In this document: one piece after another, positions 2,213 through 7,971 of the stretch | Position numbering within the stretch: position 1 is the stretch's first letter | How the letters are laid out: every line of letters begins with the position of its first letter | NCBI GenBank assembly: GCA_013306675.1 | Contig: JABLUY010000268.1 | Coordinates: 1-45,819 of the forward strand | Direction of reading: 5' to 3' | Source: Thraustochytrium sp. TN22 | Taxonomy: Eukaryota > Sar > Bigyra > Thraustochytrida > Thraustochytriidae | Length of the DNA stretch: 45,819 nt | Notes under the pieces: generated by a model | What the model saw: the letters and a program-made list of their open reading frames with translations, nothing else | Databases searched by the model: none | Told to the model about the DNA's origin: nothing | Position numbers and translations under genes: made by a program

Positions 2213-2332
2213 TTACTTCGACCGCTTGCGCATCTTCCTCCGCTTACGCTGCAGGCGCCGCGTGCGCTTCTTGCGCCACTTCCAGCGCATCTTCGCCTTG
2301 GACTTCTTCCATGGGTTGTTCTTGTGCGCCAT
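2213..2332 (-). CDS. RPL41: 60S ribosomal protein eL41
   Basis: This 39-residue protein is too short for usual ORF cut-offs. It starts MAHKNNPWKKSKAK and continues with a 25-residue very basic helix that begins MRWKWRKKR and ends KRRKMRKRSK. Those last 25 residues align without gaps to the 25-residue eL41 of animals and fungi (MRAKWRKKR...KMRQRSK). eL41 sits in the large ribosomal subunit near the inter-subunit bridge. The outer ATG is chosen because longer forms starting MAH with a conserved linker are, as I recall, known from alveolates; the internal Met at residue 15 would give the short form. The gene is intronless, diverges from the IMPACT-domain gene and shares a GC-rich upstream region with it. 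Confidence 0.93.
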   Translation of the reverse strand: MAHKNNPWKKSKAKMRWKWRKKRTRRLQRKRRKMRKRSK

Positions 2333-3196: not shown

Positions 3197-4435
3197 ATGG
3201 CGGCGGGGGAGGAGACGGTGACGACGACGTCGTGGATGGACGTGGAGGTGACGCACGGGCCGGTGCGGGCGCTGGCGGGCGGGCGACGCGTGCAGGCGCA
3301 CGTGGCACCAGTGACGAGGCCCGCGGACGTGCTGCACGTGCTGTCGTCGCTGCAGGAGGAGCGCAGGTGGACCGAGGTCTCGTGCTGGCCGTCAGCCTTT
3401 CGCGTGGCGGGACTGGCGTCCGTGGCGGCGGAGGGCAGCGCGAGCCTTATCGGCGGCGCGGGTCTGGTGGACGGGGGGCCGTCGGCCTCGCAGGAGTTGG
3501 CGGAGGAGACGCTCGAGGAGGACTGCAGCGATGGAAACTACGTGGGCGGCGGCGAGAAGCTACTGCACCTCCTGCAGCGCTGGGATGTGTACAATGTGCT
3601 GGTGGTCGTCTCGGTCTGGGAGGAGGGCTGCTCGCGCTTTCGCAAGGGCCCGGCAGGCGCGCGCTACAAGGTGCTGCTGGACAGCGTCAAGGAGGTGCTG
3701 GAGCTCTGCTATAAGGCTGCCACCGGGTCCTGTCTCGTAGCGGGCAGCTTCTTCACTTCGCTGCAGCCGTCCGCCACCGCAAGCCGGCTGGGCCGTCCTG
3801 AAAGCTGCGAGGACTTGGGCGGCGCCTCGGTGGCGCTCCTACAGGCCAGTGTGCGGGCGCCGCCGCGTACAGGCGCCTCGCACAAGCCCCGCAAGCCGCT
3901 CCCCATGCAAGCGTGCGAGGTGGCATGCGAGGTGGCTGCGCCGCCGGCCGGCACGCGTCGCGCGGGCCCTGGAGAGTTGGGCCCAGGCCACTTTTTGGCG
4001 GGTCGCGAGCCCGCCCGGGCGCGCGAAAAGCAGGGGCCGACGACCTCGGAGCGGCCAAGGCGCCGCCCACGCGTATTTCGGGTGCAGGCGCCTGCGCCAG
4101 AGCTGACGCCCGAGGACCTGCGGCAGATGCGCGTCATGACCAAGCCGCCGGCGCAGCTGGCGGCGCTCTGGGAGCAGGTAGGCCGCCTGCTGGGCCATCC
4201 AGAGGAGGACTGCCACTGGCTCGGCCTGCGCGCGCTGCTGTCGAGCCACGCCGACCTGATGGCCCGCACGCAGGACTTTCGCGTCTCGCAGCGCGAGCTC
4301 CAGCGACTCAAGGCGTGGGTGGCGGCCTTTTGCCCGAGTGCTGACGCTCGGAATCGCGTGCTCAAGGTCTCACCTATTGCCCGCAAGGTGCTCGATTGGC
4401 TCGAGACCATTGCGTCCGGCGCCGACGGACGATGA
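3197..4435 (+). CDS. IMPACT-domain protein with dynein-stalk-like C-terminus
   Basis: The protein has 412 residues, starting at ATG 3197 (aaaaggATGgcg). Residues about 30-172 fit the IMPACT/YigZ (UPF0029) fold: RVQAHVAPV at the first strand, CWPSAFRV where the family has HNCYAYRI, then DGNYVGGGEKLLHLL, VYNVLVVVSVW and GPAGARYKVL where the family has GPDRFRHI. In eukaryotes IMPACT-type proteins regulate GCN1/GCN2 signalling. Residues about 190-300 are Pro/Arg/Ala-rich linker. Residues about 303-405 resemble the stalk and microtubule-binding segment of dynein heavy chains: KPPAQL, GRLLG, a Trp before RALLSS, then LKAWVAAFCPS and KVSPIARKVLDWLE. The AAA ring is absent. The Gly-rich GGIKLG segment of bacterial YigZ is not kept (EEGCSRFRK). 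The frame is open upstream, but no upstream ATG looks better. Function is unknown. Confidence 0.75.
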   Translation: MAAGEETVTTTSWMDVEVTHGPVRALAGGRRVQAHVAPVTRPADVLHVLSSLQEERRWTEVSCWPSAFRVAGLASVAAEGSASLIGGAGLVDGGPSASQELAEETLEEDCSDGNYVGGGEKLLHLLQRWDVYNVLVVVSVWEEGCSRFRKGPAGARYKVLLDSVKEVLELCYKAATGSCLVAGSFFTSLQPSATASRLGRPESCEDLGGASVALLQASVRAPPRTGASHKPRKPLPMQACEVACEVAAPPAGTRRAGPGELGPGHFLAGREPARAREKQGPTTSERPRRRPRVFRVQAPAPELTPEDLRQMRVMTKPPAQLAALWEQVGRLLGHPEEDCHWLGLRALLSSHADLMARTQDFRVSQRELQRLKAWVAAFCPSADARNRVLKVSPIARKVLDWLETIASGADGR

Positions 4436-4543: not shown

Positions 4544-4950
4544 CTACACGCTTCTACAGGCGCTCGGGCCGTTGCCGCCCACGCGGTCGCGCGGGATGAG
4601 GCGCAGGTCCATTCCGTGCTTGAGGAAGACCTTGCTCGCGGTCTGCGCCGGGTTGATGCCCACACCATCCGCCGTGATGATGGCGCTCGTCGCGGCCGGC
4701 ACGCGGAACTCCTCGGCAGCGAACTGCAGCACCGCCGTGAACGGCGCCTCCTCCGGCACCTTGATGACGCGAAAGGGCAGCTTGCTGTCGGACGCCAGCG
4801 TGATCTTGAACTGCACCTTGTTGGCCCTGCAGGTCGCGCCGCCGTCAGCCCTCGCGTCCCCTTGCGCGGTCCTCGCGCAGCCAGCCTGCCGCCGCGCGCC
4901 GCGCCACCGCGCCGCGCCGCCGCGCCGCGCCGCGCCGCGCCAACCTACAT
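4544..4950 (-). CDS. UFM1: Ubiquitin-fold modifier 1
   Basis: Exon 2 (4544-4826) encodes [10 protein letters not shown] and the rest of UFM1, including [45 protein letters not shown] and [10 protein letters not shown], nearly identical to animal UFM1. Exon 2 starts right after a ctgcag acceptor with one base (G) before GCC. The only nearby sequence that supplies a Met is AT|GTAGGT at 4950-4943, so exon 1 would end in AT at 4949, intron 4827-4948 (122 bp) would be removed and the start codon joined across the junction. The precursor is 94 residues; mature UFM1 would end at V83-G84 after removal of a ten-residue tail (animals have two). UFM1 is conjugated to ribosomal protein uL24 and other targets by UBA5, UFC1 and UFL1. 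Identity is certain; the exon 1 model is inferred. Confidence 0.92.
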
Positions 4951-5817: not shown

Positions 5818-7551
5818 TCAGATGTTCTTTACAGCGCATGGCAGCCCCGACTCGGCGTCGGCTTTGGCGGCTTTGGCGTCGGCTTTAGCGGCTTTGGCTT
5901 TGGCTTTGGCGTTAGCTTTGGCTTTGGCGTTGGCTTTGGCGTCGGCTTTGGCGTCGGTGTAGGCGGCGTCGGCTTTGGCAGCGTCGATCTTGACCTGGTG
6001 CAGCGCGTGTGGATGGTGGCCGAAGCCGCGCAGCGCGATGACGGCCTCGTTGAGGGCGTCCGGCGTCCGCGCGGAGACGCCAGCTTGCCAGAGGTCGGGG
6101 AGGGCGTCCGGATCCAAGACGGGCTGATGCAGCAGCGAGGCGGCAGCGCGCGAGCCGCGGACCTTGGAGGCGGTCCTGGAGGCCATGTCCCGGTGGAAGC
6201 GCAGGGTGGCGGCCTCCAGGTCAAGCGGGGCTGGCGCATCGGCGAGAATCTGCGCGAGCGCTGCGGCATCCACGAGCGCCTGGTTGGCGCCCTGGCCCTT
6301 GAACGGGCTCATAGGGTGCGCAGCGTCGCCAAGGAGCGCGAGGTGGCCCGCCAGGCCTCGCGCGGCCAGGCGCGCCTGCAGTGCGTCCGCGTCGAGCTCG
6401 GCGCGGTCGTAGACCGGGTGGCCCGAGAGCAGGTCGAGATCCGTGGCGCGCAGCAGGTCGGGCAGCGGCGCGTGCCAGGCGCCGCAGCGCCGCAGCGCCT
6501 CGTCGCGCAGCGTGGCGCGGTCCTCGCAGAGGCGGCGCGCCTCGTCCTCGCTGGCCACGGGGAAGGAGAGCTGCCACATGATGGCGTCGCGGCCGCGCAG
6601 ACGCGCGTCAGTCTCGAAGGAGTCGTCCGCCGCGCTCGTGAACGGCATCGTGTACAGACGCGTCTCGCCGTCTACCGTCTCGCACACGCGCTCGTGTGTG
6701 AGCGGGTGGCGCACGGGCGCGATGCCGAGCACCACCACGCAGTCCAGGTAGCGCAGACGGTCATCGTCGCCGCAGACTGCGCGGCGCACGGCGCTAAAGA
6801 TGCCGTCCGCTGCCACGATCAGGTCGGCGTCCAAGTAGCGGCGCTCGCCGGCCTGCTCGAAGGCGACCTGCGCCGGCTCGCCGGCGGCCGGCGGCGCGCG
6901 CACCTCCTCGAAGCGCGCGCCCCACTCGAGCTGGACACCCGCCGGCGCCAGAGGCTGCAGCAGCATGTGGCGCAGGTGCTGGCGCGGCACGTGGCTGTTG
7001 AAGCGACCCTTGCCATTGAACTTGCCGTTGCGCTTCGCGCCCTGCGTCTCGGGCGCCGCGAGCCAGGCTGCAAAGGCCGAGCCAAAGTAGCCCAAGATAC
7101 GGCCGTCGCTCGCGAAGCAGAAATGTGAGTACGAGGGCGTCTCCTTTTTGGGCGGTTCGAGCCCGAGCCTGCGCAGGGCGCCCCACCCTTGCTGAATTGT
7201 CAGCCCGTACCCCTGCTTGCGCTCCTCGAAGCTCTCGTCGCGCTCCAGCACCGTCACGTGTATGCCTAGCTTTGCCAGCGCCAGCGCTGCCGCGCACCCG
7301 CCCACGCCGGCGCCCACCACTACAACGCGCAGGCCCTGCAGAGCTTGCTGCACCTGCTCGTCGCGGACGCGGCGACGGCCTCCCTCACCATCACCACCGC
7401 CACCGCCGCCTAGCCGCTTGGCCCCGCCCGCGCCAGTGCCATGGCCGCTGACGTTCGCGCCGCCGCTACAGACGCCGCAGGGCAGGAGCACGCCCTTTTT
7501 GCCCGCGCGCAGGCCCCGCCCGTCGCACCGCCAACACGAGCCGGCCGCCAT
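5818..7551 (-). CDS. FAD-dependent aromatic-ring-type monooxygenase
   Basis: The protein has 577 residues starting at ATG 7551. Residues 75-105 form the FAD-binding beta-alpha-beta unit (VVVVGAGVGG, GxGxxG at G80, G82, G85, ending VLERD). A DG motif (IVAADGIFSAVR) lies near residue 245 and the GD motif (LALLGDAAHPMSPFKGQGAN) near residue 405, typical of group A flavoprotein hydroxylases such as salicylate hydroxylase and zeaxanthin epoxidase. The substrate is unknown. Two unusual ends: C6-x2-C9-DGRG and C25-x2-C28-SGG look like a DnaJ-style zinc knuckle, and the last 45 residues are Lys/Ala repeats written by a 6-bp DNA repeat. No signal peptide is evident. A GTG-initiated extension to 7671 exists but has no ATG. 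It converges with the TMEM14 gene, 83 bp between stops. Confidence 0.85.
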   Translation of the reverse strand: MAAGSCWRCDGRGLRAGKKGVLLPCGVCSGGANVSGHGTGAGGAKRLGGGGGGDGEGGRRRVRDEQVQQALQGLRVVVVGAGVGGCAAALALAKLGIHVTVLERDESFEERKQGYGLTIQQGWGALRRLGLEPPKKETPSYSHFCFASDGRILGYFGSAFAAWLAAPETQGAKRNGKFNGKGRFNSHVPRQHLRHMLLQPLAPAGVQLEWGARFEEVRAPPAAGEPAQVAFEQAGERRYLDADLIVAADGIFSAVRRAVCGDDDRLRYLDCVVVLGIAPVRHPLTHERVCETVDGETRLYTMPFTSAADDSFETDARLRGRDAIMWQLSFPVASEDEARRLCEDRATLRDEALRRCGAWHAPLPDLLRATDLDLLSGHPVYDRAELDADALQARLAARGLAGHLALLGDAAHPMSPFKGQGANQALVDAAALAQILADAPAPLDLEAATLRFHRDMASRTASKVRGSRAAASLLHQPVLDPDALPDLWQAGVSARTPDALNEAVIALRGFGHHPHALHQVKIDAAKADAAYTDAKADAKANAKAKANAKAKAKAAKADAKAAKADAESGLPCAVKNI

Positions 7552-7971
7552 GGCACGCGCGCCATGGGTTTTGCTGGACGGCACGGCGACGACCGGCAGC
7601 AGGTCTGGGCCAGCTGGTCGAGTTACTGGTGGTGGCATGGTACCCGGTACCCTACTACCACCACGTGGCACCCGCTGGGCTTGGGCTCCCGGGACTCATG
7701 TCGCGCAAAACTTGAAGGCCGAGGTCTCTCTCATCCACGACTCTCGCTCTCTCTGCAGCCGTACGAAGCGCATGGAGAAGCAGGTCTTGGGGAAGACGAT
7801 TTTGCAGCTCAAGACAACTGACTTGACGCAGGAGCATCTGACGAGACGGTCAAAGGGCATCCATCCATCCTGCGCGGGAATTGCTACGGCAAGTTGCGCG
7901 CGTGAATCTATCAAAATCTGTCAATGATCCTGAGTCTGTCAAAAGGAAATGTGCAGTTCGTGTGAGCATGA
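7552..7971. other. Spacer between two minus-strand genes
   Basis: These 420 bp separate the start of the monooxygenase gene from the stop of the 1219-residue gene. I see no conserved frame. A GGTACC-containing palindromic run (catggtacccggtaccc) lies at about 7636-7652. Confidence 0.4.

Follow-up and report, generated by a model that had tools for sequence, protein, structure and literature searches.

The window, meaning the whole 45,819-nucleotide stretch of DNA analysed here, contains a forward-strand gene whose product combines an IMPACT-type N-terminal half with a C-terminal part resembling the microtubule-binding domain (MTBD) of dynein heavy chains. It is flanked by an eL41-like gene, encoded on the opposite strand, and by a convergent UFM1 gene (Table 1). 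Its limits were as originally predicted, with the ATG at 3197, the TGA at 4433-4435 and 412 amino acids between them.

Table 1. Features at the locus and elsewhere in the genome (G000); plain positions refer to the window.
Feature	Location	Strand	Basis or content
IMPACT-like and MTBD-like gene	3197..4435	+	single open frame, 412 aa; codon signal
Divergent UPF0029/IMPACT domain, residues 32-169	3290..3703	+	PF01205, BLASTP, hhalign, PDB
Linker, residues 170-301	3704..4099	+	composition; whole-protein Pfam scan without a match in this stretch
Dynein MTBD-like domain, tip without stalk, residues 302-406	4100..4414	+	profiles, hhalign, conserved columns
eL41-like ribosomal protein	2213-2332	-	
UFM1	4595-4819	-	PF03671, 129.1 bits
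FAD-dependent monooxygenase-like ORF	5818-7671	-	
ORF of 1,281 aa	32539-36384	-	PAN and VWA domains, PT repeat
MTBD protein C22 (L027/L058)	G000:C22	-	2,650 codons; IQ, SAM, ankyrin; abhydrolase sub-threshold
MTBD protein C353 (L028/L059)	G000:C353	+	2,396 codons; WW, TPR; p25-alpha sub-threshold
PfaA-like polyunsaturated fatty acid synthase frame	G000:C124:26703-41142		3,044 codons

Third-position G+C was 0.57, 0.70 and 0.55 in the three successive 120-base blocks 5' of the ATG and 0.93 in the next block on the 3' side. Inside the gene it ranged from 0.72 to 0.93 after the first block, with 0.78 in the linker and 0.72 in the last full coding block. The codon signal of the linker was weak at 3917-4036, where the third-position value of 0.78 compares with 0.85 at position one. 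The stop-to-stop frame around the gene spans 687 codons, of which the roughly 275 on the 5' side of the ATG likewise carry a weak codon signal. As a control for frame length, 300 windows were simulated; frames of at least 412 codons occurred in 123, of at least 533 codons in 15 and of at least 687 codons in none. Because there is little codon signal 5' of the ATG and frames of 412 codons are common in simulation, the case for the gene rests on codon periodicity and homology. The ORF appears to be a genuine gene. In a search of the 453-contig, 37.9-Mb assembly, in which the window is contig 186, the whole protein matched nothing but this locus at E ≤ 0.001.

The upstream neighbour, which we take to belong to the eL41 family, has 14 extra residues upstream of the usual short start. 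Further along the window, the C-terminus of the FAD-dependent monooxygenase-like ORF enters an Ala/Lys/Asp-rich repeat.

The UPF0029/IMPACT-type N-terminal half

The original prediction of an IMPACT/YigZ-type N-terminal half was borne out by several comparisons. The Pfam model PF01205, proposed there as a check, matched residues 33-141 at E 1.5e-4, but the score of 22.2 bits falls under the Pfam gathering score of 27; with the whole protein as query, it was 19.7 bits. BLASTP aligned residues 109-168, the UPF0029 core, with the genome's own RWD-IMPACT gene on contig C46, with 24 of 60 residues identical (E 3e-8 as a single comparison). Against the genome's three other UPF0029 domains, hhalign gave a probability of 92.6. 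The only PDB match at E ≤ 10 among 177,635 sequences was an IMPACT homologue (E 0.0054).

This half is the weakest of the four UPF0029 places found in the genome. The signatures ATH, DDDGE and RWxGG, largely common to the other three domains, were not kept in it: where the C46 protein reads ATHN, DDDGE and RWYGG, the corresponding residues are VSCW, SDGNY and VWEEG. A scan of the whole 412-residue protein gave no RWD match (PF05773) at E ≤ 1, compared to 38.9 bits for the C46 protein. On its sequence, the N-terminal half is a decayed, divergent member of the UPF0029/IMPACT family. It shares an alignable UPF0029-type core with IMPACT/Yih1, which consists of an RWD and a UPF0029 (ancient) domain; in contrast to IMPACT/Yih1, no RWD domain was matched in it, so the known Gcn1-binding part is absent. 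The RWD-UPF0029 combination is encoded by the separate gene on C46.

The MTBD-like C-terminal part

The original prediction also described the C-terminal part as following the stalk and microtubule-binding part of dynein heavy chains. The Pfam model suggested for checking this, PF12777, covers the whole stalk and MTBD and reported nothing for residues 302-406. Since it was silent there, profiles were built from the genome's own dyneins. PF12777 marks 21 places in the genome: the 18 with a nearly full-length match, in open frames 1,696 to 5,290 codons long, were taken from this match as putative dynein heavy chains, and the other three lie on C22 (52.2 bits), C353 (23.2 bits) and C416 (20.4 bits), the last two under the cut-off of 24.

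Six MTBD profiles were compared on a set of 5,419 sequences, comprising 5,000 shuffles, 417 open frames of the window and two forms of the protein. Four of them placed the C-terminal part first. The highest score, 28.6 bits (E 4.5e-7; best shuffle 10.1 bits), came from profile A1, which we composed from nine of the 18 dyneins and the AAA-less C22 and C353 MTBDs, with P0001 omitted. The all-21 profile gave 21.9 bits (best shuffle 6.8), the nine-dynein profile 20.0 bits (best shuffle 6.5) and the 18-dynein profile 13.8 bits (E 0.014; best shuffle 7.1). As A1 yields 28.6 bits but the 18-dynein profile only 13.8, the true strength may fall between the two. The two profiles that contained AAA-less MTBDs alone, two or three of them, ranked the C-terminal part 306th and 47th. 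A full-stalk profile scored 10.9 bits for the C-terminal piece and 7.5 for the whole protein; none of 1,000 shuffles exceeded 2.8 bits.

Profile-profile comparison with hhalign gave a probability of 94.6 for the C-terminal part against the MTBDs (E 7.3e-8 as a single comparison) and 91.2 with the whole protein. In pairwise comparisons with 300 shuffles each, z was at least 5 with seven of the 21 single MTBDs (best L004, z 9.2) and below 2 with six, all three AAA-less MTBDs among these six. Single-sequence PDB matches to dynein were non-significant (E 0.64 and 1.1): at E ≤ 1 among 177,635 sequences, the full-length query matched two entries, a mouse dynein-1 MTBD construct at E 0.64 and, more strongly, an IMPACT homologue at E 0.017. 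Judged by four of the six own-genome profiles and by hhalign, residues ~302-406 are an MTBD homologue from end to end (H1-H6), in agreement with the predicted dynein MTBD-like character.

Among 61 columns conserved in the 18 dyneins, 35 keep the residue class and 16 carry the residue most common in dyneins; the class was not kept in 26, six of which are gaps. Retained residues include the PP pair, Trp70, Phe91, Lys127, Ser129 and Trp138 (alignment columns); in the helix naming of the MTBD, Lys127 would lie near the start of H6. PP, Trp, Phe, Lys127-x-Ser129-x-x-Ala132 and the closing Trp follow one another in the same order and at the same spacing as in the dynein MTBD, which forms part of PF12777. 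The six motifs listed in the original prediction (KPP, GRLLG, Trp, LLSS, LKxxV and one more) were all found, in the order given there. Columns of the stalk root were among those lost, as were the D-KDN loop and some of H1. In the loop after Phe91, the conserved D, K, D and N columns are gaps or changed, and Ala replaces the lysine that comes after PPxxV in some dyneins (the H1 lysine position). At the stalk root, Val and Gln stand in place of the Ala and Glu that dyneins invariably have ahead of the PP pair, and Gly in place of the Tyr after H6. The protein stops short of the last conserved Val and Pro columns of dyneins.

With 16 prolines in the roughly 100 residues upstream of the domain (residues 200-301) and only six residues downstream of it, a coiled-coil pair does not fit. 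We infer from proline content and length that the coiled coil is absent. The linker is Pro/Arg-rich over most of its length, with 19 K+R, 9 D+E and 15 P in residues 180-296. No AAA match was found by Pfam at E ≤ 1 across the 412 residues. Of the domain pair originally proposed, the profiles thus uphold the IMPACT-type half, the MTBD-like part and the lack of any AAA module; the stalk is not upheld, as only the globular tip aligns. The protein thereby differs from a dynein heavy chain, which has a stalk, an AAA ring and a motor. AlphaFold models made from single sequences were of too low quality to be of use; that of the C-terminal part has six helices with a poor pLDDT of 60.7, and VIA-align comparison on this model was uninformative and gives the fold no structural support.

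Across their whole open frames, neither the C22 nor the C353 protein gave an AAA match. Because both carry an MTBD without an AAA match, the MTBD tip recurs as a loose domain in this genome. The 18-dynein profile gave 69.4 bits for C22, 40.8 for C353, 8.9 for C416 and 14.2 for the domain described here (the 13.8 bits above refer to a slightly longer piece). The C22 and C353 proteins resemble the IMPACT-MTBD protein in bearing the tip without AAA matches. They differ from it in their partner domains, and their MTBDs show no special sequence likeness to its own (z 1.5 for C22 and 0.4 for C353). The C353 MTBD as query found three dyneins weakly and did not find the gene in the window. By sequence comparison, the tip studied here, which is not specially like those of C22 and C353, may represent a separate case.

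Predicted function and alternatives

Judging from its domains, the gene may encode a 412-residue non-motor microtubule adaptor, in which an MTBD tip is joined to a decayed IMPACT domain; we give this reading about an even chance of being right. The C-terminal domain would go back to the six helices that form the tip of a dynein heavy chain and would serve as a fixed, nucleotide-independent module predicted to bind microtubules or tubulin. The basic Pro/Arg-rich linker, probably flexible, would connect it with the decayed IMPACT (ancient) domain, taken here as a protein-binding platform, and the adaptor would hold a partner of that domain at microtubules or at the flagellar axoneme. For this protein we infer microtubule binding, the adaptor role and the partner alike. 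Since it has neither a coiled-coil stalk nor an AAA ring, the tip would not be switchable as in dynein, and binding, if any, would be constitutive. Since no RWD domain was found, direct competition for GCN1 is unlikely.

In dynein, the contact between MTBD and tubulin involves salt bridges of H1, H3 and H6, and the available part of that report describes no test of a stalkless MTBD (PMC7042235). When the MTBD is fused to SRS in chimeric constructs that include 12 heptads of stalk, it decorates microtubules; the parts that move most on microtubule binding are H1 and the first of the stalk helices, and a stalkless construct does not appear in the available part of this source either (PMC6629372).

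Ranked second is the reading that the MTBD fold was recruited while microtubule binding was lost, leaving a general protein-interaction domain, as maybe in the C22 and C353 proteins. The 26 dynein columns that lose their class, the D-KDN loop included, the Ala at the H1 lysine position and the near-neutral charge of the domain (15 K+R vs 13 D+E) are what such a loss would leave. However, Lys127 and the hydrophobic frame are retained, and the adjoining basic linker could aid binding of acidic tubulin tails; we consider the loss of binding a serious but somewhat unlikely explanation. It seems improbable that the C-terminal part is a helical domain of other descent whose likeness to the MTBD arose by chance. 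The silence of PF12777, the E-value of 0.014 for the weakest of the four supporting profiles, the failure of two further profiles and the poor single-sequence model would be expected of a chance likeness, whereas the match spans the whole domain of about 105 residues in order, the four profiles score it above all 5,000 shuffles, and the full-stalk score also exceeds that of its best shuffle.

Two readings of a different kind were also weighed against the microtubule adaptor. The Pro/Arg-rich linker with its weak codon signal could mark the point at which two genes, or the sides of an assembly joint, are read as one; this is very improbable in view of the single stop-free frame, in which third-position G+C is 0.90 in the N-terminal part, 0.79 in the middle and 0.84 in the C-terminal part. 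Hardly credible is a SANT/Myb domain at the start of the C-terminal part, which would make the protein nuclear. The DNAJC1 SANT domain was the top PDB match of the C-terminal part alone, ranked above dynein (E 0.35), but PF00249 was silent on this part at E ≤ 10 and likewise in a further scan at E ≤ 0.001, and a profile built from the genome's Myb/SANT repeats (146 found, 20 taken, one dropped because a contig end cuts it, 19 used) gave it -0.9 bits and rank 1,851.

Neither an IMPACT-MTBD pair nor a stand-alone dynein MTBD occurred among the matches listed in the open-access literature. On the evidence of this literature and of one eukaryote genome, the protein is a new domain combination made from known parts; the architecture may already be catalogued in public protein databases. 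If the microtubule-adaptor reading is true, the microtubule-binding tip of dynein can be detached from the motor and used as an ordinary domain, once even in fusion with a family that has ties to translation control. For Yih1/IMPACT, ties to G-actin and GCN2 are described in the available part of one report (PMC7140605); with a relative tethered to microtubules, a link between cytoskeleton and translation could therefore be tested in a culturable protist. The coupling of stress or translation control with the cytoskeleton that the original prediction offered as speculation stays conjectural for this protein, whose IMPACT half lacks an RWD domain and the signature residues. The more specific idea of a microtubule-state counterpart of the Yih1-actin switch, in which the tip tethers the protein and disassembly frees the IMPACT-type domain or carries it to translation or GCN2 control, is a long shot.

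Elsewhere in the genome, which this locus suggests is probably that of a thraustochytrid, the PfaA-like frame on C124 scored 2,539.7 bits to an omega-3 PfaA model, one stretch of which it matched repeatedly. It adjoins a divergent partner frame of 2,083 codons, an arrangement familiar from thraustochytrid PUFA synthases.
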